From Microbacterium capsulatum (GTDB lineage Bacteria; Actinomycetota; Actinomycetes; Actinomycetales; Microbacteriaceae), in assembly GCF_030865425.1 (NCBI RefSeq), contig NZ_JAVFCB010000006.1, positions 186,001-250,000 of the forward strand: a stretch of 64,000 nucleotides of DNA, in the 5' to 3' direction. Below are positions 1 through 22,281 of the stretch, piece after piece (position 1 is the stretch's first letter; each line of letters begins with the position of its first letter). Both the position numbers and the translations under genes were made by a program. The notes beneath the pieces are model-generated. The model was not told the origin of the DNA. It was given only the letters and a program-made list of their open reading frames with translations, and ran no database searches.

Positions 1-567
1 GGCGCCGACGGCGTCGTCGAGGAGGACCGCGTAGAAGTCGTTGGAGCCCGCGTCGCGCAGCGTCGCCTCGACGCAGCCGCCCGTGGAGACGCCCACGATC
101 GCGACCGACTCGATGCCCTGGCTGCGCAGCAGCAGCGCGAGCTCGGTGCCGACGAAGGCGCTCTGCCGGCGCTTGCGGATGACGACCTCGTCACCCTCCG
201 GAGCGCAGGACTCGGTGAACTCGGTGAGCGGGTCGCCCTTCGCGCTGAGCCGGCCGAGGTCGGTGGAGCGGCCGTGGCCCACCGTGTAGAGCGCGCGCAG
301 CCACGCCGCCGTGGAGCTCTTGCCGTCGGGAAGGTTCTCCACGCAGATGTGGAAGACGGGCACGCCGTTCTCGCGTGCAGCTCGGATCGCCCTCGCGCAC
401 TGATCCACGATGCGCGGCATCATGCTCATGTCGTGACCGGAGTCGGCGATCGCGCCGCCCTTCGAGACCGCGCCCTTCTGCATGTCGATCACGACGAGCG
501 CGGTCGAAGTCGGGTCGAGCAGCTCGGCGAACGTGTCGCGCACCTGCTTGCCGCAGATCTCGATCAT
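1..567 (-). CDS. isochorismatase-family cysteine hydrolase (3' end cut by window edge)
   Basis: The minus-strand frame is open from an ATG at 567 to base 1 (189 codons, no stop), so the C-terminus lies outside the window. The family hydrolyses amide, carbamoyl or vinyl-ether bonds with an Asp-Lys-Cys triad. All three are visible: Asp in VVIDMQ, Lys in VIRKRRQSAF and Cys in STGGCVEATLRDA. AGGAG lies just before the ATG. It follows the MBL gene by 37 bases and is probably the last visible gene of the operon starting at 2258. The substrate is unknown; an amidase or carbamoylase role would fit the hydantoinase and amidase of the same presumed regulon, but that is inference. Confidence 0.85.
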   Translation of the reverse strand, partial: MIEICGKQVRDTFAELLDPTSTALVVIDMQKGAVSKGGAIADSGHDMSMMPRIVDQCARAIRAARENGVPVFHICVENLPDGKSSTAAWLRALYTVGHGRSTDLGRLSAKGDPLTEFTESCAPEGDEVVIRKRRQSAFVGTELALLLRSQGIESVAIVGVSTGGCVEATLRDAGSNDFYAVLLDDAVGA

Positions 568-604
568 GGGATTCTCCTTTCAGCCCCGCGACGGGGCGGG
601 TTCG

Positions 605-1423
605 TCAGTAGCGGTAGGCCTGCTTGTGACCTGCGCGGATGATGGGCTCGACGTCGCGGACGTTCGTGATGACGTTCCCGTGGGTGGGAGCGACGAGCTC
701 GACACCGAGCTCGTCGACCAGCGCGAGCACACGGTCGTAGACCTGGTCGGCGTCGTCGTTGAAGCGCGCCCAGTACAGTGCGCTCCCGGTGAAGAAAGCG
801 GCGTTCTCCACCGCGATCGGCGTGGACAGCTCGTCCGTGGTGAGCGCGCACTCCCCCGGAAGGTGCAGCGGATCCTCGTCATCCAGCTCTGGACGATGCA
901 TGTAGCAGAACCCGTCGGCGGTGAAGAGGACCTTCTCCCGTCGGGCGAACGCCCACTGCGTGTTCGGAAGGTCGCGGATCATCGCCTCGACGATGAGGAC
1001 CTCCTGGCCACCGCCCAGATCGATCACGTCCCCGGGGACCCGCGAGTGCAGGTTGGGCACGATCTGCGGATAGAACAGGTGGTAGTCGTGCATGTCGCCG
1101 ACGACCTGGACATCGGGGTACTTCTCGACGAGTCGAGGCAGGTTCCCGGTGTGCGGAAGCTCGGGATGCGTCGGGAAGACGTAGGTGAGCGGCTCGTCGC
1201 CGAGCAGTTCGTCGAGCTTGGCGGAGATCGTGGTCCAGCTCGACGGGTTGCCCGTGTCGACGATCATCGAGCTCTCACTGCCCTTGATCACATAGGCCGA
1301 GTTGTGGCCGTGGATGACGCGGTCGGCGAGGTGGAACGGCAGGCACGCACCCATCCAGAAGACGCCGTCCCGGATCTCCCGCGGAAACTCGGCCGCCATC
1401 GTCTCGGTGATGATGTTCTCCAT
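605..1423 (-). CDS. MBL-fold metallo-hydrolase, ODP/flavodiiron-type site
   Basis: A 272-residue beta-lactamase-fold protein. The start at 1423 is chosen because AGGAG precedes it and because it lies 10 bases after the upstream MBL gene; a longer in-frame start would overlap that gene. The first metal motif reads H86-P-E88-L-P-H91. This has Glu at the second position, as in oxygen-binding diiron (ODP/flavodiiron) proteins (H-x-E-x-D-H), rather than HxHxDH, and Pro where Asp is expected. D170 (FTAD) and H248 (APTHGN) supply later ligands. There is no flavodoxin domain. It may be an oxidoreductase or thioesterase-like enzyme; the substrate is unknown. The neighbouring gene is a degenerate paralogue. 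Confidence 0.85.
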   Translation of the reverse strand: MENIITETMAAEFPREIRDGVFWMGACLPFHLADRVIHGHNSAYVIKGSESSMIVDTGNPSSWTTISAKLDELLGDEPLTYVFPTHPELPHTGNLPRLVEKYPDVQVVGDMHDYHLFYPQIVPNLHSRVPGDVIDLGGGQEVLIVEAMIRDLPNTQWAFARREKVLFTADGFCYMHRPELDDEDPLHLPGECALTTDELSTPIAVENAAFFTGSALYWARFNDDADQVYDRVLALVDELGVELVAPTHGNVITNVRDVEPIIRAGHKQAYRY

Positions 1424-1433
1424 GCGAGGTCTC

Positions 1434-2258
1434 CTATGCGGCGTCGTCGGCCAGAGCGGCCAGCATGAGGTCGAGGTGGTGGCGGACGCTGGCGCGTCCG
1501 CGGATGACGGATCCGCGCGAAGGCGCGATGATCTCAGGATCGAAACGGTCGAAGGTCTCCACGAGCCAGTCGCGCAGCGGATGCTTGGTCGCACGCGGCA
1601 GCCACTCGTACTTGGCGAACAGGTGCGCCGCGACCTGCTCGGGCGTCGTGTCGTCCTCGACGGATCCGTCGATCACCCGCGGGCCGTCAGGCCGCTCCAT
1701 CACGCCGTGCGTGAAGGTGTCGGAGGTGAACAGCGCACCGGTCTTGCCATCCCACCCCCAGAAGGTGGGCAGGAGACGCAGCAGAGGCGATTGCACGTCG
1801 AGGATCCGCCCCGGAGCGATCTCGATGCTCATCGAGCGCTCGAGGGCATCCCCCTCGACGGTACGGGTGCCGTCGATCTGCTCGCGGCGGCCGCGCAGCG
1901 CGAACCGGCTGACGTCGTCGAACGCGTCGAAAGGATTGATCACGCCACCGGTGAAGAGACGGAGGATGTCGAAGCGGCGGGAGATCGGCTCGAGGTTGGA
2001 GACGCAGTCCATCTCGGGACGGGTGAAGAAGATCGACACCCCGCCGCCCTCTCCGATCAGCTCGGCGAGATCGTCGAGGATCTCGCCGCCGTGCACCGCC
2101 ATTCCGGAGTCGACGAGAAGATGCGCATCACCCTCGGTCAGCAGATAGCAGTTGGATGCCTGATACCCGGTCGAGCCGCGTGGTACCCAGCTCACTCTGT
2201 CCTCGAGCTCGTACGCGCCGCCAAGGACCGTCAAGCCATCGGTAAGCTTATTGAACAT
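1434..2258 (-). CDS. degenerate MBL-fold protein, probable pseudoenzyme
   Basis: A 274-residue paralogue of the next gene. Its metal motif reads R80-P-E82-M-D84-C85, so both histidines are replaced, and the last His is Arg (APSR248G). Only E82, D84 and D180 (FTSD) remain. Binding of the usual two metals is unlikely. It retains the Asp that its partner lacks, which suggests a regulatory or structural partner. It is first in the operon. The ATG at 2258 is only 6 bases downstream of a TAGAAT minus-10 box and has no good ribosome-binding site, so the mRNA is probably leaderless. A palindromic operator overlies that minus-10 box. Confidence 0.82.
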   Translation of the reverse strand: MFNKLTDGLTVLGGAYELEDRVSWVPRGSTGYQASNCYLLTEGDAHLLVDSGMAVHGGEILDDLAELIGEGGGVSIFFTRPEMDCVSNLEPISRRFDILRLFTGGVINPFDAFDDVSRFALRGRREQIDGTRTVEGDALERSMSIEIAPGRILDVQSPLLRLLPTFWGWDGKTGALFTSDTFTHGVMERPDGPRVIDGSVEDDTTPEQVAAHLFAKYEWLPRATKHPLRDWLVETFDRFDPEIIAPSRGSVIRGRASVRHHLDLMLAALADDAA

Positions 2259-2260
2259 AT

Positions 2261-2276
2261 CTTCATTCTATTGAAT
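2261..2276. promoter_or_regulatory. operator-like palindrome, site 1
   Basis: CTTCA-TTCTAT-TGAAT. It matches CTTCA-N6-TGAAG at 9 of 10 arm bases and covers the minus-10 box of the MBL operon promoter, as expected for a repressor site. Confidence 0.6.
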
Positions 2277-2293
2277 CTCAGTGAGCGAGTCAA
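2265..2293 (-). promoter_or_regulatory. promoter of the MBL/MBL/isochorismatase operon
   Basis: On the minus strand TTGACT (2288-2293) and TAGAAT (2265-2270) are separated by 17 bases. Only 6 bases separate the minus-10 box from the ATG, implying a leaderless or nearly leaderless transcript. Confidence 0.75.
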
Positions 2294-2380
2294 CTGCCGA
2301 CCTCGGCGCAGTCTCCCTCAAAACAACCAGCATCCGCGGCAATCGAGACATCCTCGCTCGACAACAGCACTGCCACGAAA

Positions 2381-2396
2381 CTTCATTATGATGATG
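2381..2396. promoter_or_regulatory. operator-like palindrome, site 2
   Basis: CTTCA-TTATGA-TGATG, 120 bases upstream of site 1, between the sulfatase stop and the MBL promoter. It is not at a core promoter; a distal looping site is possible. Confidence 0.5.
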
Positions 2397-2423
2397 CACC
2401 CGCCTGTGAGATGAAGGTGGCGC

Positions 2424-4748
2424 CTAGTCCGAACGCGAGGCGGCGGCGCGATCGATGTCGACGATGATCTCCGTGTTGTACTCGGCCCGCGGACCCGGCC
2501 GGTACTCGACCGACTCCAGTGCGCCCGTGCAGCGGAACGGGCCGCGCCGCTCGTGCAGCTCCGCGTCCACCGGGCTTCCGCGGTCGACGCCCACGCTGAT
2601 GCCGGTGAAGGGCGCGGCTCCCGCCATCTGCAGGACCGGCCCGAGGTCGAGCGCGCGCGCACCGTCGATCGTCGCCGAGATCCCCCACCGGATCCCGGGT
2701 TCCGCGGTGAACGTCACTCGGATGACCTCGGGGAACCGCGCACCCAGGGGCGCCGAAGCTCGGTGCATGCGTCCGTACTCGTTGTAGCTGATGCAGAACC
2801 GGTCGTCTTCGATGAAGGCGACGTAGCCTCCGCCCTGGTCGCCGTGGGCGAACAGCACTCCTTCACCGTCCGGTCCGGCGACGAAGCGGACGATCACCTC
2901 GAACGACCTCAGCCGGATCAGCCGATTGGATCGGAAGCGCTCCAGCGTCGGCGATGCCGGCCGCAGGACGGTCGGTCGCTCCAGACGCAGATCGGACGAC
3001 GGGCGGGTCCTCGTCAGGGTGCCGTCGTCGTTGAGCGGGAAGACGGTGTTGCGCCAGGCCTCCTCGCGCCAGCGCGCCGCGAGACGCGCGACGAGCTCGG
3101 GGTTCCCCGGCGCGAGGTCGACGGTCTCGCAGGGATCCTCCTCCATGTCGTACAGCCGCCACTCGGCATCGGAGAACTCCTCGCCGGCACGGTGTTCGGT
3201 GAGGATCTTCCATCGGCCGCTGCTGAACGCGCGACTGCCTGCGAACTCGGCATACTGCTCGGCATGCGGGCTTGCCGCCCGAGGGTCGCGGAGCACGTCG
3301 TCGAACCTCACACCGTCGACGGACGGAACCTCCCGCCCGTTCCAGCGCGGGAGCGCGACGACGCCGGCGAGCGCGAGCAGGGTCTGCCCGAGATCGGACA
3401 CGTAGGCGTACTGGGCGCGCAGCCCCTGGTCGTCGGCCCGTCGCGGCAGCCCGCGAGGCCAGGACACGATCAGAGGAGCCCGGATGCCGCCCTCCATCAT
3501 GAATCGCTTGTACTTCGCGAACGGCGTGTTCGACACCGAGGCCCACCCGCGCGGGTAGTGCATCATCGAGCGCGGACCACCGACCTCGTCCAGGTCCATC
3601 GGAGAACCGGCCTCGCCGAGCGCGAGATCCGTCGGAGCTCCCATCGACGCCAGATACGTCGCCGTCCCGTGGTCTCCGCCCTCACCGCTCGCGCCGTTGT
3701 CGGAGGTGAAGGCGATGATCGTGTTGTCGTACTCCCCCATCGCCTTGAGCTGAGCCACGATTCTGCCCAGACTCTGGTCCACCGTGTCGACGATCGCGGC
3801 GTAGACCTCCATGCACCGCGCGAACCAGCGCTGCTGCGCCTCGGTCAGCTCGTCCCAGGCCGTCAGCTCCGCATCGCGCGGCGACGGCCGGCCGCCGTCC
3901 GGGAACAGCCCTTCCTCGCGCTGCCGGGCTTCTCGTCGGGCCCGGACGACATCCCAGCCCGCCTCGTACCGGCCGCGGTACTTCTGAATGTCGTCCGCCT
4001 TCGCCTGCAACGGAGCGTGCGCGGCCTGATGCGCGAAATAGAGGAAGAACGGCTTGGTCGGGTCGTTGGCGCGCAGCCCCGCGATCATCGACTCGGCCTC
4101 GGCGGTGAGCGCGTCCGTCAGATAGAAGGAGCTGTCGTATTCGTCGACGGTGATCGGACTGTTGTCACGCATGAGGCGGTGCGGCTGGAACAGCGTGGTG
4201 TACGCGTCCATGCAGCCGTAATAGCGGTCGAACCCGCGCTGGACCGGCCACGACGACTTCTCGGCGCCGTCGTGGAGCTTGTTCGAGGGCGTCAGGTGCC
4301 ACTTGCCGACCATGAAGGTGGCATAACCGGCCGCCCGGAAGGACTCCGCGAGCGTTGGGGCGTCCGAAGGAAGCTCCGCGCTGAACCCGGGGTATCCCGG
4401 GCTCGACCCCGCGACCGTCGCGAATCCCGCCCTGTGCGGGTTCAGTCCGGTCAGCAGGGAAGCCCGAGCCGGCGCGCAGACCGTCGACGTGTGATAGTTC
4501 GTGAACCGATACCCCGCCTCCGCGATCTCCCGCAGGTGGGGCGTGTCGATCTCGCCCCCGAACGGCGAGATGTCACTGAAGCCCAGATCGTCGACCAGTA
4601 CGAGGACGACGTTCGGCGCGTCATCGGGCGCGCGAACCTCGGCCGGCCAGGACGGCGTCGACTGCGAAGCGAGCTCTCGGACCACACCGGAGAACCGTTC
4701 GTATCCGCGCGCGCCGACCGGATATCCCGGCGTCGTGGAGGCATCCAT
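2424..4748 (-). CDS. arylsulfatase-type sulfatase
   Basis: A 774-residue sulfatase that would hydrolyse an organic sulfate ester. The formylglycine motif is C91-A-P-A-R followed by SLLTG. Metal ligands D53/D54 (VDDLG) and D350/N351 (TSDNG) and catalytic-site K149, H151 and H244 are present. The long C-terminal part (about 580-774) is the beta-rich tail seen in large arylsulfatases. No signal peptide is visible, so it is probably cytoplasmic and acts on an imported sulfate ester. GGGAGG precedes the ATG. It stands alone on the minus strand, divergent from the ABC importer, with two operator-like palindromes upstream. The Cys needs a formylglycine-generating enzyme, which is not in the window. 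Confidence 0.93.
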   Translation of the reverse strand: MDASTTPGYPVGARGYERFSGVVRELASQSTPSWPAEVRAPDDAPNVVLVLVDDLGFSDISPFGGEIDTPHLREIAEAGYRFTNYHTSTVCAPARASLLTGLNPHRAGFATVAGSSPGYPGFSAELPSDAPTLAESFRAAGYATFMVGKWHLTPSNKLHDGAEKSSWPVQRGFDRYYGCMDAYTTLFQPHRLMRDNSPITVDEYDSSFYLTDALTAEAESMIAGLRANDPTKPFFLYFAHQAAHAPLQAKADDIQKYRGRYEAGWDVVRARREARQREEGLFPDGGRPSPRDAELTAWDELTEAQQRWFARCMEVYAAIVDTVDQSLGRIVAQLKAMGEYDNTIIAFTSDNGASGEGGDHGTATYLASMGAPTDLALGEAGSPMDLDEVGGPRSMMHYPRGWASVSNTPFAKYKRFMMEGGIRAPLIVSWPRGLPRRADDQGLRAQYAYVSDLGQTLLALAGVVALPRWNGREVPSVDGVRFDDVLRDPRAASPHAEQYAEFAGSRAFSSGRWKILTEHRAGEEFSDAEWRLYDMEEDPCETVDLAPGNPELVARLAARWREEAWRNTVFPLNDDGTLTRTRPSSDLRLERPTVLRPASPTLERFRSNRLIRLRSFEVIVRFVAGPDGEGVLFAHGDQGGGYVAFIEDDRFCISYNEYGRMHRASAPLGARFPEVIRVTFTAEPGIRWGISATIDGARALDLGPVLQMAGAAPFTGISVGVDRGSPVDAELHERRGPFRCTGALESVEYRPGPRAEYNTEIIVDIDRAAASRSD

Positions 4749-4764
4749 CGGCGACCCTCCCCGT

Positions 4765-4799
4765 CTTCATCATCATGATGTCTCTTCAAAATATTGGGA
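4765..4799. promoter_or_regulatory. paired operator-like palindromes, sites 3 and 4
   Basis: CTTCA-TCATCA-TGATG (4765-4780) and a weaker CTTCA-AAATAT-TGGGA (4784-4799), 19 bases apart, lie 17 and 36 bases upstream of the sulfatase ATG. No good minus-35/minus-10 pair is visible here, so activation or a weak promoter is possible. Confidence 0.5.
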
Positions 4800-4922
4800 T
4801 CATCGCGATGGTACCCGCGAAGCCGGCCCAAGGGAACAGGATCCCCTCTTCTCGGGGCGGTCGGGCATCAGGAAGGACCAGAAGACGAGCGAGATGGGGC
4901 ATCATCGCCCGCGGAAGAATGA

Positions 4923-4952
4923 TTGACATACTGATGACGTCTTCAGTAGAGT
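4923..4952 (+). promoter_or_regulatory. promoter of the ABC importer operon
   Basis: TTGACA (4923-4928), 18 bases, TAGAGT (4947-4952). It is a near-consensus housekeeping-type promoter 58 bases before the binding-protein ATG. Confidence 0.75.
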
Positions 4953-4956
4953 GAAG
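4941..4956. promoter_or_regulatory. operator-like palindrome, site 5 (best match)
   Basis: CTTCA-GTAGAG-TGAAG has perfectly inverted 5-base arms and fully covers the minus-10 box of the importer promoter. Confidence 0.65.
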
Positions 4957-5010
4957 ACTCCTTGAGTCACAGTGTGGTGCTCGACTGAAGCACCCCGAAA
5001 AAGGGGCAGC

Positions 5011-6618
5011 ATGATGAAATCACAGAGAACGATCGGAATCGTCGCCGCGACCGTGGCCGCGGTCCTTGGACTGGCAGGCTGCGGCGCAGGGCAAGCCGCT
5101 TCATCCACGAGCCAGAAGCCGGTCCGCGATTCCGCGGTCATGGTACTCCCGAGCCTTCCCGATAATCTCACCATCTTCCCGTACGGCGGCAATGCATCGC
5201 AGGCCGTCCTCTCGGGACTGGGCTCGCAGCTGGGCTCGTACGAGGTGTCCTGCAAGAACCCCGTGCCGGGGAAGGTGACGGGAAAGCTCGCGGAGAGCAT
5301 CGCGCTCAGCAAGGACCTCAAGTCGATCGAGGTCAAGCTTCGCCCGCTGAAGAGCCAGACCGGCCACACGCTGAGCACCGACGACGTGATGTGGAGCTTC
5401 AGCAAGTACGGCTTCGTCATCCAGCCGGTACTGAAGGCGTCCTTCGCCCAGGCGGGGTACGACGTCGACAATCTGATCACCAAGATCGACGACCACACCT
5501 TCAAGTTCAATCTGAAGTCCTTCTCCTCCACCGCGCTGGATGTCCTGCAGAACCCGCTCGGCTACATCTACGACTCCGTCGAGGCCCAGTCGCACGCGAC
5601 CTCCGACGACCCGGTCGCCCAGAAGTGGCTCTTCACGCACCTCGCCGACTACAGCGGCTGGAAGCTCGACAACTTCAGCCCGCGGGAGTCGCTCGCCGTC
5701 ACGGCGGACCCGAACTGGGGCGGCCCCAAGCGCGCTGTGAAGAAGGTCGCCGTGCAGAGCGTCCCCGACGACACCACGCGCCAGCAGCTCCTGGAGACCG
5801 GCGAGGCTCAGGTCGCGGTGGGCTTCCAGCCGAGCCAGTACCGCGCCCTCGTCGGCAAGCCCGGCATCAACGTCACCGACTGCGCCAGCCTCAACATGGA
5901 CAACCTGATGTTCTCCACCCGTGACGCGCCTCTGAACGACGTGCGGGTGCGTACGGCGGTGTCGATGGCCATCAACCGGGACGAACTCGCCAAGGGCGCC
6001 TACGCCGGCTACGCGACTCCCGCCGTGTCCTCGTTCAACAAGGCCTTCAACTTCGGCCAGACCGGAGACGCCTACAAGTTCGACCCGGCGAAGGCCAAGA
6101 AGCTGCTCGCCGATGCCGGATACCCGAACGGCTTCGACCTGACCCTGACCTACAGCCCGACTCGACCCGGTCCCGTGACCTCGAAGAGCTCGGTGCTGGT
6201 CCAGTCGATGCTCGCCGCCGTGGGCATCCGCGTCAAGCTCGAGGTCATCTCCGGCCCGACCCAGTTCACCGACGTGATGTACACGACCCACCTGTATCAG
6301 AGCGCGCTCTACGGCGAGCCCATCGCGATCGCCGACCCCGCCTGGCTCACGTACGTGAAGTTCGGCAAGTCCCCGAACAACAGCGGCACGTTCTGGAGCA
6401 GCCCCGCCCTGCTCGACCTGCTGTCCCAGGTGTCGGCGACCCCGGCCTCCGACACGAAGACCCGCAGCGATCTGTTCCATCAGATCGCGAAGATCGGCGA
6501 CACCGAGCTGCCTCTGATCGAACTCGTCGAGACTCCGTACGTGATCGCGACGAACGGCATCGCCACCGGAAACCCGCTGCCCAACGGCCAGCTGGCCTTC
6601 TCGGACTTCGGCAAGTAG
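5011..6618 (+). CDS. extracellular substrate-binding lipoprotein, ABC family 5 (peptide/nickel type)
   Basis: A 535-residue binding protein that would capture the importer substrate outside the membrane. The N-terminus is a lipoprotein signal: Lys/Arg start, hydrophobic stretch and lipobox LAGC with C24 as the lipidated Cys. The rest has the DppA/OppA pattern, with a late motif AINRDELAKGAY and a C-terminal peptide-binding lobe. The start at 5011 is preferred to an in-frame ATG at 4972 because AGGGG precedes it and the signal peptide then starts correctly. It is the first gene of a five-gene importer. The family also carries opines, glycosides and other solutes, so the ligand is open. Confidence 0.92.
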   Translation: MMKSQRTIGIVAATVAAVLGLAGCGAGQAASSTSQKPVRDSAVMVLPSLPDNLTIFPYGGNASQAVLSGLGSQLGSYEVSCKNPVPGKVTGKLAESIALSKDLKSIEVKLRPLKSQTGHTLSTDDVMWSFSKYGFVIQPVLKASFAQAGYDVDNLITKIDDHTFKFNLKSFSSTALDVLQNPLGYIYDSVEAQSHATSDDPVAQKWLFTHLADYSGWKLDNFSPRESLAVTADPNWGGPKRAVKKVAVQSVPDDTTRQQLLETGEAQVAVGFQPSQYRALVGKPGINVTDCASLNMDNLMFSTRDAPLNDVRVRTAVSMAINRDELAKGAYAGYATPAVSSFNKAFNFGQTGDAYKFDPAKAKKLLADAGYPNGFDLTLTYSPTRPGPVTSKSSVLVQSMLAAVGIRVKLEVISGPTQFTDVMYTTHLYQSALYGEPIAIADPAWLTYVKFGKSPNNSGTFWSSPALLDLLSQVSATPASDTKTRSDLFHQIAKIGDTELPLIELVETPYVIATNGIATGNPLPNGQLAFSDFGK

Positions 6619-6637
6619 TCGCACGCGGGGAGGCGGC

Positions 6638-7621
6638 ATGATCCGTCGCCTCCCCGCCCCCTCACCCGCATCCCTCGAAACCCCCGGTGAAGCCATGAAG
6701 TTCGCGGAGTACAACACCGCGGCCACGACCGCAGTGGCCGCCCGACCGACGACGACCTCGGTCATCGCCTCCAGCAGATTCCCCCGCCTCAAGCGGGCGC
6801 AGCTCTTCGCCCGCAAGCACAGGAGCAGCATCACGATCGCCGTCGCGCTCGTGTTCCTCGTCGCGTTCATGCTCTCGGGCGTGCTCTTCCCTCTGCCGTT
6901 CAGCCCGACCAAGCCCGATGTCGAGGCGATCGGACTCGCGCCGAGCGCGACGCACTTCTTCGGTACCGACGGTTTCGGCTTCGACGTCTACTCCCGCGTC
7001 CTCGACGCCGGCGGACGCGACATCCCCATCGCACTCGCGGGTGCCCTCGTCGCGCTCGCCCTCGGCGTCCCCGTGGGGATCGCCGCGTCGGGGGGAAAGC
7101 TGGGGGACATCCTCATGCGCGGCCTCGACGGCTTCTCGGCGCTGCCGATCCTCATCCTCGTGATCGTCGCGATCAGGCTCATGGGCGGAAGCGCGTTCGA
7201 CATCGTCGTGGCGATCGCGATCGTCAACACCCCGAGATTCGCCCGCCTGGTACGCGCCGAGGCGGTGGCATTGCGCTCGAAGCGATTCGTCGAGGCCGCC
7301 GTCGCCGCGGGCGCCTCTCCGCTGCGCATCGCCGTTCAGCACATCGTCCGCAACGCGTACGGCATCGTGCTCGTGCAGACCACTCTCGCGGCCGCGAACG
7401 CCATCGGCGTGATCGCCGCCCTCAACTTCCTCGGCGTCGGCACCACCCCGCCGACCCCCACCTGGGGCGGCATGATCCGAGACGGGATGACGCTGCTGAT
7501 CGACGGCAGATGGTGGGCATCCGCCTTCCCCACAGTGGCGATCTTCCTCGTGGTCGTCGCGTTCAACGCGATCGCGGACGGCATCGAGGCCCGCGCCGAG
7601 GCGACAGGAGGACACTCGTGA
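6638..7621 (+). CDS. ABC transporter permease, DppC type
   Basis: Inner-membrane permease of the family-5 importer, 327 residues. An N-terminal cytoplasmic stretch is followed by a first helix near residues 68-88 and the transport domain. The EAA loop reads VEAAVAAGASPLRIAVQHI. GGGAGG precedes the ATG at 6638; an in-frame ATG at 6695 would remove 19 residues and is a possible alternative. It follows the binding protein by 19 bases and overlaps the next gene by one base. The gene order (binding protein, DppC, DppD, DppF, DppB) is unusual; DppB normally precedes DppC. Confidence 0.92.
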   Translation: MIRRLPAPSPASLETPGEAMKFAEYNTAATTAVAARPTTTSVIASSRFPRLKRAQLFARKHRSSITIAVALVFLVAFMLSGVLFPLPFSPTKPDVEAIGLAPSATHFFGTDGFGFDVYSRVLDAGGRDIPIALAGALVALALGVPVGIAASGGKLGDILMRGLDGFSALPILILVIVAIRLMGGSAFDIVVAIAIVNTPRFARLVRAEAVALRSKRFVEAAVAAGASPLRIAVQHIVRNAYGIVLVQTTLAAANAIGVIAALNFLGVGTTPPTPTWGGMIRDGMTLLIDGRWWASAFPTVAIFLVVVAFNAIADGIEARAEATGGHS

Positions 7622-8466
7622 TGACGAACCCGCTACTGGAGATCTCCGATCTCAGCGTCGAGTTCGGCGCCCACGGTCAGACCCGCCAGATCATCAATGG
7701 GATCTCCTTCACGGTCGAGCGGAACGAGATCATCGGACTCGTCGGAGAGTCCGGATCCGGGAAGTCGACGACCGCGCGATCCGTCATCGGACTGCTGCCG
7801 CCGACAGGGCGCAGTTTCGGCAGGATCGTCTTCGACGGCAACGAGATCAGCATGGCCTCCGCGAAGGAGATCCGGTCCGTCCGGGGCAGGCAGATCGGAT
7901 TCGTCGCGCAGAATCCGTTCGACGCGCTGAACCCGATTCTCACGATCGAACGACAGTTCTTCAACGTCATGCGCGCGCACGAGAAGATCAGCAGAAAGGA
8001 CTCCCGGGCGCGTGCCGAGGAGCTTCTGCGCTCGGTCGGGATCAACGACACGCAACGCGTTCTCGCGGGCCACGCCCACGAGCTCAGCGGCGGAATGGCG
8101 CAGCGCGTCGTGATCGCGATCGCACTGAGCCTCGATCCGAAACTGCTCATCGCCGATGAGCCCACCACCGCGCTGGACATGACCGTGCAGCGGCGCGTGC
8201 TCGATCTCATGCGCGAGATCATCCTGTCGACGGGGCGCTCGATGCTTCTGGTGACTCACGACCTGACCGTCGTCGCCACCTACTGCGATCGCGTCGCCGT
8301 CATGTTCCGGGGGGACATTCTCGAGGTCGGAGACGTGCAGTCGGTCTTCACCGATCCCCAGCACGAGTACACGCGCGCGCTGCTGAATGCCGCAGCCGGC
8401 AAGGGCTTGACCACGGACGGGCTTCGCGAACGAGGGCCTTCTGCCGAAACAGCAAGGGTGTCGTGA
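7621..8466 (+). CDS. ABC transporter ATPase, DppD type
   Basis: Nucleotide-binding subunit, 281 residues. Walker A is GESGSGKST (42-50), the signature LSGGMAQ (155-161) and Walker B LLIADE (175-180). The ATG at 7621 overlaps the upstream stop (TGATG); a GTG at 7618 in the same frame is equally compatible with AGGAGG at 7606. The oligopeptide-type C-terminal extension is present but short. It pairs with the following DppF-type ATPase to energise the two permeases. Confidence 0.93.
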   Translation: MTNPLLEISDLSVEFGAHGQTRQIINGISFTVERNEIIGLVGESGSGKSTTARSVIGLLPPTGRSFGRIVFDGNEISMASAKEIRSVRGRQIGFVAQNPFDALNPILTIERQFFNVMRAHEKISRKDSRARAEELLRSVGINDTQRVLAGHAHELSGGMAQRVVIAIALSLDPKLLIADEPTTALDMTVQRRVLDLMREIILSTGRSMLLVTHDLTVVATYCDRVAVMFRGDILEVGDVQSVFTDPQHEYTRALLNAAAGKGLTTDGLRERGPSAETARVS

Positions 8467-8467
8467 G

Positions 8468-9415
8468 ATGACCAGGGAAACAGGCGCGCAGGACATGCCG
8501 ATCCTCCGTGCGGAGCATCTGAGCAAGACGTTCGCCGCACAGGGCAGGGGAAGCGCCGTCTACGCGGTGAACGACGTGAGTCTCACCCTGCAGCACGGGG
8601 ACACCCTCGGTCTCGTCGGCGAGAGCGGATCCGGCAAGTCGACGCTGGGCCGGTTGCTCGCGCGACTCGTCGAGCCCGACGAGGGAACAGTCGTCCTCGA
8701 CGGCGAAGACCTCACCGCCCTCCGCGGCCGGAGGCTGCGGCGCGCGAGGTCGAAGTTCCAGGTCGTGTTCCAGGAGCCCTATGCGTCCCTCGATCCGCGC
8801 ATGACGATCCTGCAGATCATCGAGGAACCTCTCGTCGCGACCAAGCTCGTGAGATCGGCGAAGGAACGCCGGGAACGAGTGCTCGCGATGCTCGACGAAG
8901 TCGGGCTGCCGCGGGAGTTCCTCACCCGGAAGCCCGGCGCTCTGAGCGGCGGGCAGCAGCAGCGTGTCGGGATCGCCCGCGCGCTGATCAGCGAGCCGAC
9001 CTTCGTCGTGCTGGACGAGCCCACCTCGTCGCTGGACCAGACCGTGCGCGCCAGCATCCTCCAGCTGCTGGTCCACCTGCAGCGCACCAAGTCGCTGACA
9101 TTCGTCTTCATCTCCCACGACATCCACACCGTCCGGCGGCTCTGCAACCGCACTGCGGTGATGCACCTCGGCAGCATCGTGGAGATCGGTCCGACCGAGA
9201 ACGTCATGCAGCGCCCGCAGCATCCGTACACCAGGTCGCTGCTCTCGGCCGAACTCTCGCTGACCCCGGGGGTCCCGACGAGAGACCTCGCTCCCGCGGA
9301 TCCGCTGCCGACCGACCTCCCGACGGGAGCCGCCGCGGACGCGCCGGGCTCCGTCCGGCCAGGCGGTCTCGAGTCCGGGGCGCCGGAACTCGCCGTGGAA
9401 AGGAACAACCGATGA
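8468..9415 (+). CDS. ABC transporter ATPase, DppF type
   Basis: The second nucleotide-binding subunit, 315 residues. Walker A is GESGSGKST (51-59), the signature LSGGQQQ (159-165) and Walker B FVVLDE (179-184). The tail after residue 270 is rich in Pro, Thr and Ala and looks unstructured. It starts one base after the DppD stop and overlaps the next permease by four bases (ATGA), indicating translational coupling. Confidence 0.93.
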   Translation: MTRETGAQDMPILRAEHLSKTFAAQGRGSAVYAVNDVSLTLQHGDTLGLVGESGSGKSTLGRLLARLVEPDEGTVVLDGEDLTALRGRRLRRARSKFQVVFQEPYASLDPRMTILQIIEEPLVATKLVRSAKERRERVLAMLDEVGLPREFLTRKPGALSGGQQQRVGIARALISEPTFVVLDEPTSSLDQTVRASILQLLVHLQRTKSLTFVFISHDIHTVRRLCNRTAVMHLGSIVEIGPTENVMQRPQHPYTRSLLSAELSLTPGVPTRDLAPADPLPTDLPTGAAADAPGSVRPGGLESGAPELAVERNNR

Positions 9416-10500
9416 TCCGCTTCGTGCTGGGCCGCCTGGTGCTGGCGGCCGTTCTGCTGGTGGCCGTGATCTCGGCCTCCTTCGCCATCGTGTCGCTGAT
9501 GCCGGGGGACCCGGCGCACGCGGTGCTCGGGGAGTTCGCGACCCCTCAGCAGGTGGCCGACCTCAACGCGAAACTGGGGTTGAATCAGCCCGTCCTCACC
9601 CAGTGGTGGCACTACCTGACGTCGGTGCTGTCGGGCGACCTCGGCACCTCGTTCTTCTCCGGTGCCCCTGTCTCGCAAGAGATCATGGTGCGCCTGCTCC
9701 CCAGCCTGCTGGTCGTGATCCCCGGTCTCCTCCTCGCCGTGACTCTCGGAACGGCCATGGGCGCGGTCAGCGCCTACCGCCGGGGCGGTCATCTCGATCG
9801 GGCGCTCTCGGGGTACACGTCCGCCACGCTGGCCCTGCCGGAGTTCGCCCTCGCGCTCATCATCATCTACGTCTTCTTCCAGGTGCTGCGGATCGCACCG
9901 GCACCGCTCGGCATGCTGTCGCCGCTCGATCCGGTGCCGCCGAAGATCACGGGATCCGTGCTCATCGACGCAGCCCTGTCGGGCTCGTGGCAGACGATCG
10001 GCGGTGCGCTGGCCCATGCGGTCCTCCCGATCGTCACTCTCGGGATCTTCTTCTCCGCCTTCTTCGCCCGTGTGGTCAGGACGGGACTCTCGGCGGCGCT
10101 GCTCTCCCCGCAGGTCGAGTTCGCACGGGCCTGCGGGCTCAGCGAGTGGATGGTGTTCCGGTACGCGATGGGCGACATCCGGCGCACCCTGCTCACCTTC
10201 CTGGTGATCCTCACCGGAGCGGCACTCAGCGGCGCTGTGATCCTCGAGACGGTGTTCTCCTGGCCGGGGATCGGCACCTGGGCGCTCAAGGGCATCCTTC
10301 AGGTCGACATTCCGGTGATCCAGGGATTCGTCCTCATCATCGCCTCGACTCTGCTGTTCGCGTATGTGGCCGTCGACATCCTGATCGCCTTCATCGATCC
10401 CCGGGTGCGTGCGCAGGTCACGGCCAGGAAGGCGACGCGCACGCACCACCAGAGGCCCGCGCCGGTGGTCCCCATCGTGAACGACGTCGGACCGGCCTGA
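9412..10500 (+). CDS. ABC transporter permease, DppB type
   Basis: A 362-residue permease. It opens with the DppB-type first helix (MIRFVLGRLVLAAVLLVAV) followed by the periplasmic MPGDPA motif. The EAA loop reads VEFARACGLSEWMVFRYAM. About six membrane segments are visible, and the end is a cytoplasmic basic tail. It closes the importer operon and overlaps the ATPase gene by four bases. Confidence 0.92.
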   Translation: MIRFVLGRLVLAAVLLVAVISASFAIVSLMPGDPAHAVLGEFATPQQVADLNAKLGLNQPVLTQWWHYLTSVLSGDLGTSFFSGAPVSQEIMVRLLPSLLVVIPGLLLAVTLGTAMGAVSAYRRGGHLDRALSGYTSATLALPEFALALIIIYVFFQVLRIAPAPLGMLSPLDPVPPKITGSVLIDAALSGSWQTIGGALAHAVLPIVTLGIFFSAFFARVVRTGLSAALLSPQVEFARACGLSEWMVFRYAMGDIRRTLLTFLVILTGAALSGAVILETVFSWPGIGTWALKGILQVDIPVIQGFVLIIASTLLFAYVAVDILIAFIDPRVRAQVTARKATRTHHQRPAPVVPIVNDVGPA

Positions 10501-10520
10501 CACCCCTCGCCCACGCGAGT

Positions 10521-10536
10521 CATCACTTTATTGAAG
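10521..10536. promoter_or_regulatory. operator-like palindrome, site 6
   Basis: CATCA-CTTTAT-TGAAG; read on the other strand it is CTTCA-N6-TGATG, the same form as sites 2, 3 and 7. It lies 20 bases after the importer operon and 140 bases upstream of site 7. Confidence 0.5.
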
Positions 10537-10640
10537 GTGCCGTCGGGGTCACCCCGCCCGGCGCTCGCAGCGATTCCGGGTCGATACGAGGTTTTTCGGG
10601 CCACGCGCCCGCCCACTCCTCGCAGCTTCTTCATCGCGGA

Positions 10641-10669
10641 TTGACATGCAGGCCGAATTTCTTCATTAT
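10641..10669 (+). promoter_or_regulatory. promoter of the aminotransferase/amidase/hydantoinase operon
   Basis: TTGACA (10641-10646), 17 bases, CATTAT (10664-10669). It is the only good promoter pair in the 218-base gap after the importer. Confidence 0.65.
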
Positions 10670-10696
10670 TATGATGACAACCTTCTTTAAATGAAG
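10661..10696. promoter_or_regulatory. paired operator-like palindromes, sites 7 and 8
   Basis: CTTCA-TTATTA-TGATG (10661-10676) overlies the minus-10 box. A second, CTTCTTTAAATGAAG (10682-10696), starts 21 bases downstream, two helical turns away. Its central spacing is one base shorter. Confidence 0.55.
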
Positions 10697-10718: not shown

Positions 10719-11663
10719 ATGTCGACCTCTTCCGCCCCGGTCCGATACCTGCTGCACGACGGCGAGCTCATCGAGTACGCCGACGCCCGGCTGCACGTCC
10801 TCTCCACGACGGCGAAGTACGGCGTCGGGGTGTTCGAGGGCTTCCGCGCGTACTGGAGCGAGGAGGACGGCGAGCTGTACGCCTTCCGGGTCGCCGACCA
10901 CATGCGCCGCCTGGTCGATTCGATGCGCGTCGTCGAGATCGACGGCCCCACCGACATCGAGGAGCTCTCCGGCCAGCTCCTCGGCCTGATCCGCGCCAAC
11001 GAGCTGCGGTCGAACCTGCACATGCGCACCCAGGTGTTCGTCGACTCCGCCGACGGCAAGCCCGACGACACCGGCCCCTCCACCGTCTACATGGCCGCGA
11101 TCCCGATGGGCAACTACTTCGGTGCCACGGGACTCGCCGTGCAGATCTCCAGCTGGGCGCGCCTCTCCGACCGCGCGATGCCGCCGCGCATCAAGTCGAT
11201 CGCGAACTATCAGAACGGCCGCCTCGCCCTGCTCGAGGCCCGCCGCAACGGCTACGGAGCGGCGCTCCTGCTCACCGAGAGCGGGCACGTCGCCGAAGGC
11301 GCGGGGTACAACGTGTTCATCGTGCGGCAGGGCCGGCTCTGCACGCCCCCCTCCACCGAGAGCATCCTCGAGGGCATCACGCGTGACAGCGTGCTGCAGC
11401 TCGCCGCGACCCAGCTCGGGCTCGAGGTCGACCTGCGGCCGATCGACCGCACCGAGCTCTACTCGGCCGACGAGATCTTCGTGTGCGGCAGCGCGGCCGA
11501 GGTCAACCACGTCACCTCCGTCGACCGCACCCCGATCGGTGACGGCACGAACCCGGGCCCGATCACGCAGCAGCTGCAGGATCTGTACCAGCGCGCCGTG
11601 CGCGGCCGGATCCCCGGTCTCGAGCACTGGGTGACTCCCGTGTACGGCACCGCGGGCGCGTGA
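10719..11663 (+). CDS. class IV PLP aminotransferase (branched-chain or D-amino-acid type)
   Basis: A 314-residue class IV aminotransferase converting an amino acid and a 2-oxo acid into each other. K159 in RIKSIANYQN is the PLP lysine, E193 in EGAGYNVF binds the pyridine nitrogen, and the N-terminal YGVGVFEGFRAY is typical of IlvE. It is the first gene of an operon with an amidase and a hydantoinase, downstream of promoter and operator-like sites. A role in transaminating the amino acid released from a hydantoin is inferred from context; a biosynthetic IlvE role cannot be excluded. Confidence 0.88.
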   Translation: MSTSSAPVRYLLHDGELIEYADARLHVLSTTAKYGVGVFEGFRAYWSEEDGELYAFRVADHMRRLVDSMRVVEIDGPTDIEELSGQLLGLIRANELRSNLHMRTQVFVDSADGKPDDTGPSTVYMAAIPMGNYFGATGLAVQISSWARLSDRAMPPRIKSIANYQNGRLALLEARRNGYGAALLLTESGHVAEGAGYNVFIVRQGRLCTPPSTESILEGITRDSVLQLAATQLGLEVDLRPIDRTELYSADEIFVCGSAAEVNHVTSVDRTPIGDGTNPGPITQQLQDLYQRAVRGRIPGLEHWVTPVYGTAGA

Positions 11664-12565
11664 TGCCCACCGCCACGGCGCACGCCGGCTTCCTGCACGC
11701 CCGCACCGAGTTCGACCCGGAGGCCGAGCCGGTCCTGCGGGTCGCCCCGGGCGAGCACTTCGTGCTCGACGCACGGAGCCTGCTCACGGATCCGGCGTTC
11801 GAGACCGCGGACGACTACACCCGCTTCTCGATCCCGGTCACCGGCCCCGTCGTGATCGAAGACGTGCAGCCCGGCGACCTCCTCCGCATCGACGTGCACG
11901 CGATCCGGCTCGCAGACCGTGGAGGCATGGTCACCCTGCCCGGGCGCGGCGGCTTCGGAGCGCCGCTGCGCATGGACGGACTCGTCGTGCCGGTGCACGA
12001 CGGCCACGCGCACTTCCCCGATGACGTCCGGGTGCCGATCCGCCCGATGATCGGCAAGATCGGCGTCGCGCCGGCCGGCGAGAGCCCGAACTCGTCGACG
12101 GTCGGCCGTTACGGCGGGAACATGGACTGCCGCGACATCGTCGCCGGCGCGTCCCTGTTCGTCACCGCCCAGGTCGTCGGCGGCCTCCTGTACGCCGGCG
12201 ACCTGCACGCGGTCCAGGGGGACGGCGAGTGCTCGCTGACCGCCGTCGAGATGGAGGGCTCGGTCGAGCTGTCGGTCCACGTCGTCGCACCGGGCCCCGT
12301 GCGCGGTCCCGTCGTGTTCGCCGAGGGACGGATGATCGTCCTCGGCGACGGCGAGACCCTGGACGAGGCCGCGACCCTCGCCCTCGACGAGACCATGGCG
12401 ATCGTGCGCGCCGACCGCGGCTGGAGCCGGGAGCGCACCGCGATGCTGCTCTCCGCCGCCGCCGACGTCGCCGTGTCCCAGCTCGTCAACGCCCGCAAGA
12501 GCATCAAGGTCTCGCTCGACGAGCGCTATCTGCTCGCCTCCCCCTTCGAACGGAAAGAGGACTGA
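11663..12565 (+). CDS. acetamidase/formamidase family protein
   Basis: A 300-residue member of the FmdA/AmdA family, which hydrolyses short amides to acid and ammonia. Support is its length, the repeated beta pattern with conserved GGNMDCRDI (near 150) and the region from HAVQGDGE through the ALDETMAIV helix. The ATG at 11663 overlaps the aminotransferase stop (TGATG); a GTG at 11660 is an alternative. No separate ribosome-binding site is seen, so coupling is likely. Next to a hydantoinase it may act on an amide or N-carbamoyl product; the substrate is inferred only. Confidence 0.85.
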   Translation: MPTATAHAGFLHARTEFDPEAEPVLRVAPGEHFVLDARSLLTDPAFETADDYTRFSIPVTGPVVIEDVQPGDLLRIDVHAIRLADRGGMVTLPGRGGFGAPLRMDGLVVPVHDGHAHFPDDVRVPIRPMIGKIGVAPAGESPNSSTVGRYGGNMDCRDIVAGASLFVTAQVVGGLLYAGDLHAVQGDGECSLTAVEMEGSVELSVHVVAPGPVRGPVVFAEGRMIVLGDGETLDEAATLALDETMAIVRADRGWSRERTAMLLSAAADVAVSQLVNARKSIKVSLDERYLLASPFERKED

Positions 12566-12566
12566 C

Positions 12567-13991
12567 ATGTACGACCTCCTCATCACCGGCGGCCTCGTCG
12601 TCACCCCTTCCGGGCCCGCGCGCCTCGACATCGCGATCGCCGACGGGAGGATCGCCGCGCTCGCCCTCGCCGGCACCACGCCGCACGACGCCGCGAACCG
12701 CGTCGTCGACGTCGCCGGCAAGCTGGTCGTGCCCGGTGGGATCGACCCGCACGTGCACACCAACTCCGTCCTCCCGACGGCGGCGGAGAGCGGCATCAAG
12801 TGCTTCGGGTCCGATCGGGTCTCGGAGGGTGCGGTGTATGGCGGCACCACGACGCTCGTCGACTTCGCGCACTGGCAGCCCGGCGACGACCTCGAGGACT
12901 CCTTCCGGCGCAAGGCGACGGAGTGGAACGGGATCAGCTACACCGACTTCGCCCTGCACGGCACCTTCAAGGAGCCGGAGATCCCGTTCTCCGTGCTGGA
13001 GCAGATCCCGGATGCGGTCAGGAACGGCCACGGCAGCTGGAAGGTGTGGATGACGAACACCACGCCCACCCGCCCGCACCAGAAGACCGACCTCGGCAAC
13101 ATGTGGGGGATCATGGAGCAGACGGCCGCGGCCGGCGCCATGCTCGCGGTGCACGCCGAGGACGACGACATCGTCATGTACTCCTACCGTCGCCTGAAGC
13201 ACCAGGGCGCGATCGGCCTGGAGAACATGCACCACGCGCACAACGTGCTCTCCGAGCGGCTGTCCTTCCAGCGCGCGATCACGCTCGCCCGGCACGTGGG
13301 CGCCGCGATCTACCTCATGCACGTGAGTGCGAACGACGGCATCGAGGCGATCCGCCAGGCCCGCGGAGAGGGCGCGCCGATCTACGGCGAGATCCTCCCC
13401 CACTACGCGTACTTCTCCGCCGCGGACTACCGGCAGCCGCACGGCGCCATCTACCACACGTACCCGTCGCTCAAGGATGCGCCCGACCGCGACCGCATGT
13501 GGCCGGCGCTCATCGACGGCACGCTGAGCACGCTCGCGACCGATGGCGTGTGCACCGACTTCGACGTGAAGACCCGCGGAAAGACGATCTTCGACGCGAC
13601 GGGCGGGTTCGCCGGCGTGGAGATGCGGATGGCCGTGGCGTACACCGAGGGCGTGGTGGACCGGGGGCTCGACCTCGTCCGGTTCGTCGACCTCACCTCG
13701 GCGAACGCGGCGAAGATCCTCGGCCTGTATCCGCGCAAGGGCGCGATCGCCGTCGGCAGCGACGCGGATCTCGCCGTGCTCGACATCGACGTGGACAAGC
13801 GGGTCAGCGCCGCCGACCTGCACGAGGCCGACTACACGGCGTGGGAGGGCTACCGCACCCGCGCCTGGAACACGATGACCCTGCTCCGCGGAACCGTGAT
13901 CGTCGAGGACCGGACCATGATGACCGGGCCCCTCGGCGAGCTGCAGGAGCAGCGCGTGGCGTCCGACGTGCTCAACCGTCCCGCCTGCTGA
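12567..13991 (+). CDS. D-hydantoinase / dihydropyrimidinase
   Basis: A 474-residue cyclic amidohydrolase that opens hydantoin or dihydropyrimidine rings to N-carbamoyl amino acids. The binuclear metal site is complete: H62 and H64 (DPHVHTN), K159 (GSWKVW, to be carboxylated), H196 (VHAEDD), H252 (LMHVSA) and D326 (ATDGVCTDF). The length is normal. The start ATG follows AAAGAGGAC, one base after the amidase stop. It is the last gene of the operon. No N-carbamoylase is present, unless the acetamidase-like or isochorismatase-like neighbour fills that role. Confidence 0.93.
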   Translation: MYDLLITGGLVVTPSGPARLDIAIADGRIAALALAGTTPHDAANRVVDVAGKLVVPGGIDPHVHTNSVLPTAAESGIKCFGSDRVSEGAVYGGTTTLVDFAHWQPGDDLEDSFRRKATEWNGISYTDFALHGTFKEPEIPFSVLEQIPDAVRNGHGSWKVWMTNTTPTRPHQKTDLGNMWGIMEQTAAAGAMLAVHAEDDDIVMYSYRRLKHQGAIGLENMHHAHNVLSERLSFQRAITLARHVGAAIYLMHVSANDGIEAIRQARGEGAPIYGEILPHYAYFSAADYRQPHGAIYHTYPSLKDAPDRDRMWPALIDGTLSTLATDGVCTDFDVKTRGKTIFDATGGFAGVEMRMAVAYTEGVVDRGLDLVRFVDLTSANAAKILGLYPRKGAIAVGSDADLAVLDIDVDKRVSAADLHEADYTAWEGYRTRAWNTMTLLRGTVIVEDRTMMTGPLGELQEQRVASDVLNRPAC

Positions 13992-21438: not shown

Positions 21439-22281
21439 TCAGTGCGCGTGCGGGGCGTGCCCGACGTGGTCGGATCCGGCGTGGTCGGGTTCGGCATGGT
21501 CGTGCGAGTGCGCCGCGCCGGCCTCGCCGTGGCTGTGCACGTACCCGCCGTTCTCGTCGGCGTGGAAGTGCGGCGCCATCGGGCCTGGATCCTGCGGGGC
21601 GTGCTCCCCGGCCCGGTGCGCGGCGAGCAGCGTCCGCACCCAGTCCGCGAGCCGGGCGACCGAGTCCGCGTCGTGGCGGGACAGCGCGAGCACCGCGCCG
21701 CCCTCCCGCGCGTGCTCGGCGTCGGCGACCATCTGGGCGACGTCGACCTCGACATAGGGCGCGAGATCGGTCTTGTTGACGACCAGCAGATCGGCGCGGG
21801 CGATCCCGGGCCCGCCCTTGCGCGCGACGTCGCCGCCGCCTGCGACGTCGAGCACGAAGATCTGCGCGTCCACGAGCGCCGGCGAGAAGGTCGCCGTGAG
21901 GTTGTCGCCGCCGCTCTCCACGAGCACGACGTCGAGCGGGGAGAAGTCGCGCTCGAGGTCCTCGACGGCGAGGAGGTTCATCGTGACGTCGTCGCGGATC
22001 GCGGTGTGCGGGCACGCGCCGGTCTCGACGGCCCGGATCCGCTCGGGATCCAGCACCCCTGCGGAGCGCAGGAAGCGAGCATCCTCGTCGGTGTAGATGT
22101 CGTTCGTGATCACGCCCAGGCGCAGCTCGTCGGCGAGGGTGCGGCAGATCGTCGCGATAAGCGAGCTCTTGCCGGTGCCGACGGGCCCGGCGACGCCGAG
22201 ACGGAGGGAACGGGCGGGCCCCTCGACCGGCTGCTGAGCCTGTCGAAGCACGGGGACCGATGTGACGGGGTTCTCAGGCAC
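21439..22281 (-). CDS. ureG: urease accessory GTPase UreG with His-rich C-terminal tail
   Basis: GTPase driving nickel insertion into urease. Walker A is GPVGTGKSS (32-40), and the nickel-binding Cys-Pro-His motif is at 90-92 (ETGACPHTA). At 280 residues it is longer than the usual 200-230. About 43 residues are added at the C-terminus (238-280), containing 12 His. The N-terminal segment [11 protein letters not shown] is the translation of a GCTTCGACAGGCTC repeat. The tail may store nickel or zinc. It overlaps ureF by eight bases. Confidence 0.94.

Follow-up and report, generated by a model that had tools for sequence, protein, structure and literature searches.

In a study of Pseudomonas (PMC7901475), XRE-cupin proteins are described as local repressors that act at palindromic sites by their own genes, some being suspected of autoregulation. 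Each is thought to come off the DNA when it senses a metabolite of the very pathway under its control. This scheme suits a catabolic island of about 23 kb (about -9230 to 13991) in Microbacterium capsulatum, where a 16-bp palindrome recurs in each control region that we recognised. The island occupies the left end of the analysed stretch of 64,000 nucleotides (the window; bases 186001-250000 of contig NZ_JAVFCB010000006.1, in a genome of 3.99 Mb, here G000) and extends beyond its edge; coordinates are window positions, with negative numbers lying left of the window and base 0 being the base that precedes base 1. Judged from sequence, the palindromes are very probably operators of a single local XRE-cupin repressor, the gene for which lies 3.8 kb beyond the left edge of the window.

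Palindromes and promoters of the island

All six palindromes that a sequence-only reading had claimed (2261, 2381, 4765, 4941, 10521 and 10661) were recovered as matches to CTTCAN6TGAAG with at most one mismatch, and the only further such place in the 64 kb was 18343. With as many as two mismatches allowed, 29 matches were counted in the window, against 8.05 expected from dinucleotide shuffles. The sites share the consensus CTTCATTATAATGAAG, a 16-bp inverted repeat with an AT-rich core and weaker flanks, which is concentrated in the island and holds TATAAT on both strands. The six window sites and a seventh at -1656, which was found by pattern, served to build a symmetric 24-bp matrix. The predicted sites, with their matrix scores where given, are as follows.

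2261..2276: putative operator over the -10 box of the MBL operon (promoter TTGACT-17-TAGAAT, minus strand), with the start codon at 2258 directly downstream
2381..2396: distal palindrome in the interval from the sulfatase end to the MBL1 promoter, score 27.2, auxiliary site or relic
4765..4780: putative operator upstream of the sulfatase gene (minus strand), score 25.0
4784..4799: weaker copy that accompanies 4765 at a spacing of 19 bp, score 11.2, a value attained in 13 of 2000 flank shuffles
4941..4956: putative operator over the importer -10 box (TTGACA-18-TAGAGT, plus strand), score 27.8, a perfect GTCTTCA-N6-TGAAGAC
10521..10536: palindrome homologous to the divergent importer operator of relatives, score 25.5
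10661..10676: putative operator over the -10 box of the aminotransferase/amidase/hydantoinase operon (TTGACA-17-CATTAT, plus strand), score 32.6
10681..10696: weaker copy that accompanies 10661 at a spacing of 20 bp, score 12.9, a value attained in 27 of 2000 shuffles
-1656..-1641: putative operator left of the window, upstream of the PuuE-like/regulator operon, score 28.0
-6246..-6231: putative operator left of the window, between the divergent amidohydrolase and deacetylase 2 genes, score 19.9

The last two lie beyond the set of the earlier reading. The promoter overlap that it had claimed at 2261, 4941 and 10661 was borne out, with each -10 hexamer of a TTGACA/TTGACT promoter lying inside the palindrome, so that three of the eight sites of G000 hold such a hexamer; -1656 contains TATAAT without a matching -35 box. 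The start codon of MBL1 almost abuts its palindrome, and the MBL1 transcript may therefore be leaderless.

Weaker partners were found at 17-20 bp from five of the eight sites, at scores reached by no more than 27 of 2000 flank shuffles. They include one 20 bp upstream of 4941 (score 13.6, attained by 3 of 2000 shuffles) and a weaker copy 19 bp from -6246. Among the second sites proposed earlier, 4784 stands and 10682 has its best register one base away at 10681; the proposed spacing of about two helical turns agrees with the 19 bp of 4765/4784 and the 20 bp of 10661/10681. Such spacing would suit two dimers about two helical turns apart. The best partners of 2261, 2381 (score 0.5) and 10521 were not outstanding, being equalled by 97, 117 and 812 of 2000 shuffles, respectively. 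Sites 10521 and 10661 lie 140 bp apart, and the four other Microbacterium loci have a similar distance (140-144 bp); across the ten remaining loci it ranges over 63-188 bp, which lends no support to a loop of fixed length.

The arrangement of the sites also bears on a rival reading, in which the palindromes are indeed bound by the XRE-cupin protein, with activation or dual regulation as the result. The position of 2381 and 10521 away from recognisable promoters and the pairing of several sites would agree with this, whereas the -10 hexamer inside the palindrome at three promoters suits occlusion, and we regard activation as improbable. As for 2381, no convincing promoter was found at it and no counterpart was recognised; together with 10521, it probably does not act as the working control site that had been implied, and is better taken as a distal or auxiliary site or a relic.

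The specificity of the palindrome comes from its AT-rich core, and the arms alone are unspecific: bare CTTCA-N6-TGAAG with up to one mismatch occurs at 151 places genome-wide, against 134 for a reversed control, and was rejected as a genome-wide test. By comparison, YTTCANTNTNNTGAWG with up to one mismatch gave 11 forward and 9 reverse matches against 2 and 2 for its control, at seven distinct places within 12.3 kb of the island and nine in the rest of the genome. When each of the seven training sites was left out in turn, they scored 20.4-26.6. In a scan of the 144 kb around the island, -6246 (19.9) was the sole new place that came near to these scores, the best remaining place that overlapped no site reached 16.0, and none of 20 permuted matrices gave a match of at least 20 on the same sequence (best 18.0).

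It had been put forward that many unrelated coding positions scoring as high as the sites would count against a shared operator. On the full matrix the nine outside YTTCANTNTNNTGAWG places scored lower (9.1-19.4), as did a tenth from the bare-pattern search (18.4), whereas the bare pattern does not make this distinction. By a crude measure, eight of these ten places lie in open frames with a third-position G+C of at least 0.80, against one of the seven island sites (10661). A further idea, which was already disfavoured, does without a common protein and takes the palindromes for products of chance or for AT-rich features of promoters; it draws on the bare-motif count and on the resemblance of the consensus to a -10 box; the left-out scores, the permuted-matrix controls and the conservation described below speak against it, and we consider its probability negligible.

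The XRE-cupin regulator and the conservation of its predicted operators

The sequence-only reading had placed a regulator gene just left of the window, and among the genes left of base 1 an XRE-cupin gene was indeed found.

-4529..-3834 (L016:15471-16166), minus strand: XRE-cupin regulator, 231 aa, 3.8 kb left of the window

Its operon encodes a PuuE-like deacetylase, a cupin protein, an HpcH/HpaI-family protein, the XRE-cupin protein and an arylmalonate decarboxylase/racemase-family protein. The regulator has an N-terminal XRE-type helix-turn-helix (HTH_3, 1e-10; HTH_31, 1.6e-10) and a C-terminal cupin domain (Cupin_2, 2.1e-14, residues 162-221), all over the cut-off. Residues H168, E172, G179 and G195-D196 are identical in 14/14 orthologues, and so is S74-G84, which is mostly kept in a sister group and more variable in a distant group; judging by the fold, we take S74-G84 to be the recognition-helix region. 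The best NCBIfam relative is PuuR (NF007408, residues 62-225), at 75.3 bits against an equivalog cut-off of 211, and the regulator is not a PuuR. Eight solved-structure sequences match it, the best being 1y9q (E 5.3e-8). The palindromes near the gene, -1656 upstream of its operon and the six in the window, are conserved, and the site upstream of its own operon implies that the regulator may be autoregulated.

Conservation was assessed at 13 named loci with regulators 75-91% identical (three in Microbacterium, nine in Arthrobacter and one in Sinomonas) and in the Microbacterium genome G114, 14 loci in all. Eleven further, weaker matches in Bacillales (L095-L105; XRE-cupin 31-43% identical over the best segment) were left out of all counts, and the matrix scan of these 11 of the 24 loci is uninterpretable, as AT-rich contigs give many matches of at least 15. 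Scored with a matrix from G000 only, 62 of the 70 orthologous control regions (five in each of 14 loci) had a best score of at least 16; on the same regions, 100 permuted matrices averaged 1.05 such regions and never gave more than 12. By region, the loci with such a score were:

upstream of MBL1: 14/14
between MBL4 and PuuE: 12/14
before the regulator gene: 8/14
between the divergent deacetylase and amidohydrolase genes: 14/14
upstream of the aminotransferase gene: 14/14

Region D of locus L090 is overlong (3835 bp, with broken reading frames) and has a proper site at 18.4, so the count stands. Two sites of at least 15.7 occur upstream of the aminotransferase gene in 14/14 loci, and by eye TTGACA stands upstream of the MBL1 palindrome, which is CTTCAATAGATTGAAG or close to it, in every locus. 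The palindromes were thus not lost in relatives that keep the genes, an outcome that had been named as telling against a shared repressor; related strains keep both. The island, the regulator and most palindromes are also carried by the 1-Mb plasmid StoSoilB13-2 of Arthrobacter sp. StoSoilB13 (L153, 927977-960612), which was not used in building anything: sites of at least 16 occur in four of its five control regions, and its MBL4-PuuE region has no site of at least 15. In eight Arthrobacter loci the PuuE coding sequence itself holds a palindrome, CTTCAAYGTACTGAAG or similar, for example at L091:8389.

The promoter-plus-operator pattern TTGACN{12,18}TTCANTANNNTGAWG was searched irrespective of the regulator. 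It occurred in three of 149 genus genomes (G000, G107 and G114) with nine matches, all in the island, and none for the control, and these three are the genomes with a regulator orthologue of at least 80% identity, the next best being 44%. In the order sample, which partly overlaps that of the genus, it occurred in two of 396 genomes (G000 and G913; the control gave one match in 396), and a regulator orthologue at E<=1e-60 was found in the same two. Among 25 sister XRE-cupins (32-45% identical), 11 have a site of at least 18 within 1.5 kb and nine have one of at least 20, whereas none of 18 more distant XRE-cupins has a site of at least 18, their best being 17.3; one of the 11 positives (L079) is low in G+C, where matches come easily.

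These data bear on the possibility that another regulator encoded elsewhere in the genome binds the palindromes and the XRE-cupin gene is merely a neighbour. In its favour, the regulator survey covered the 20 kb left of the window, and relative L088 has a 978-bp gap in its island that could hold an unlisted gene. On the other side, palindromic promoters occur in exactly the genomes with a close XRE-cupin orthologue, and sister XRE-cupins often have a similar palindrome nearby. The other regulators recognised within 20 kb left of the window, of the Lrp/AsnC and RpiR types, are not kept in relatives, being found in one and none of 15 other loci, respectively (loci of about 20-40 kb; 16 entries, one locus being entered twice), and were rejected. 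We therefore see only a very slight chance for a regulator encoded elsewhere.

The earlier suggestion that one repressor controls all of these operons is consequently supported by the palindromes in the orthologous regions and by the co-occurrence of pattern and orthologue, with repression itself deduced from sequence. We suggest that a dimer binds each palindrome and that a second dimer may occupy the partner about two helical turns away. The operators being merged with promoters, the bound repressor would bar RNA polymerase from the -10 region. Release of the DNA would follow when the cupin domain binds a pathway metabolite, perhaps a small nitrogen compound of the amide, ureide or imide type, and would open the importer, sulfatase, hydrolase and regulator operons together.

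Several points weigh against control by a single XRE-cupin repressor. Binding, the direction of control and the ligand are all deduced, and the bare-arm count given above is among the adverse results. The orthologous loci were all collected through the regulator, so that its presence there follows from selection and the presence of the palindromes is what counts. Two of 14 loci, as well as the plasmid, lack the MBL4-PuuE site, and six of 14 lack the one immediately ahead of the regulator gene. The weakest predicted operator, -6246 (19.9), is not separated by score from the best of the outside places examined (19.4) and hence rests on conservation. No convincing sigma70-type promoter is recognisable over the sulfatase (4765), PuuE (-1656) and -6246 sites. 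The matrix also finds matches inside genes of the relatives: PuuE contains one in eight of nine Arthrobacter loci (17.4-21.8), as does MBL2 in L085 (22.1) and L086 (21.5). These may reflect coding constraint or intragenic operator sites. The promoter-plus-operator pattern was written after G000, G107, G114 and the named loci had been seen, and G913 resembles the SD291 genome, which is already among those loci; its absence elsewhere is thus the informative part. Finally, 14 of the 25 sister loci have no site of at least 18 within 1.5 kb, and this cut barely exceeds the highest score in the distant group (17.3).

Island genes and apparent replacement of the importer

The genes predicted to be under control of the palindromes in and next to the window are as follows.

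1..2258, minus strand: MBL operon, continuing left of the window into MBL3 and MBL4
1434-2258, minus strand: MBL1, without a Pfam match, named from its neighbours and a weak resemblance
605-1423, minus strand: MBL2, in the MBL operon
-104..567, minus strand: isochorismatase-family gene in the MBL operon, extending past the window edge
2424..4748, minus strand: sulfatase, 774 aa (PF00884, 2.4e-57)
5011..10500, plus strand: operon of a family-5 (dipeptide-type) ABC importer, with substrate-binding protein (SBP), permease, two ATPases and permease
10719..13991, plus strand: operon of a class IV aminotransferase, an FmdA/AmdA amidase and a dihydropyrimidinase/hydantoinase-like protein

Pfam identified the first three importer genes; the remaining two, for the second ATPase and the second permease, were assigned only from the sequence as read and from gene order. 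The sulfatase contains a CAPAR stretch, which resembles the Cys-type sulfatase motif. By eye, the open frame 21439-22281 resembles the urease accessory protein UreG, which may fit amide or ureide nitrogen use. Left of the island, L016:6494-10702 appears by eye to be a 2-oxo-acid dehydrogenase-like operon with the Lrp/AsnC regulator.

In G107, G114 and plasmid L153, the importer permease/ATPase operon is divergent from the aminotransferase operon and two operators lie in the shared control region. At this place G000 instead carries the sulfatase gene together with an importer that runs the opposite way, with operators at 4765 and 4941. Compared with G107 and G114, identity is 45-61% for the importer proteins (37.5% for one G114 ATPase) and 63-94% for the other island proteins. 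The block of sulfatase and importer (about 2300-10510) thus appears to replace the ancestral importer of the relatives. The 10521 palindrome corresponds to the ancestral importer operator and now trails the last importer gene; on sequence grounds it is therefore probably a relic of the ancestral divergent importer promoter or an auxiliary site.

Homologues of the sulfatase (E<=1e-40) occur in five of 14 genomes at 33-52% identity, and the seven stretches fetched for such homologues have no site of at least 14. Among 247 genus genomes, no relative of the SBP (E<=1e-100) was closer than that of three orthologous islands, at 46-48% identity, and one plasmid SBP matched at 46.9%; the donor of the block was not found in these sulfatase and SBP searches.

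Relation to described XRE-cupin systems

A sister subfamily of XRE-cupins in Microbacterium (nine of the 25 sister loci, 36-44% identical, up to 20 kb examined) resembles the regulator of the island in that seven of the nine adjoin a dipeptide-type ABC importer, and in these seven the same stretch holds a palindrome such as CATCATTTAGATGATG (score at least 19.6), a variant of the island palindrome. The sister stretches differ in gene content: apart from the importer and the regulator, no island gene was matched at E<=1e-8.

We tentatively propose, as an extension that may well fail, that the catabolic pathway of the island is undescribed and acts on a cyclic compound of the amide, ureide or imide type, the import and hydrolysis of which are gated by one XRE-cupin repressor, and that operators fused to the -10 box serve as portable promoter-operator cassettes. 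If this is true, such cassettes would let a diverged importer with a sulfatase replace the ancestral importer in this strain and yet stay in the regulon, and one operator code would be common to the island regulator and the sister subfamily, whose palindrome is a variant. For an uncharacterised catabolic island shared by soil actinobacteria, the analysis supplies a defined operator, a candidate for the regulator and the bounds of the regulon; the inducer, and hence the substrate of the pathway, thereby becomes testable in a reporter screen. The operator code may also extend to related XRE-cupins of the Microbacteriaceae.

The E. coli regulator PuuR shares a helix-turn-helix and a cupin domain with the regulator of the island, but no putrescine genes were recognised among the annotated island genes. 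No description of this regulator or its operator was found in the open-licence PubMed Central papers searched, and the kind of switch appears to be known while this member and its operator code appear undescribed. The closest parallels are PauR, PsdR and ErfA of Pseudomonas (PMC7901475). Those proteins belong to another phylum, and at the present locus the palindrome is CTTCATTATAATGAAG with the -10 hexamer inside it at three promoters. Like the island regulator, all three combine XRE and cupin domains and are associated with palindromic sites in a few promoters near the regulator gene and with genes for the uptake and processing of small molecules, and PsdR also controls dipeptide uptake genes.

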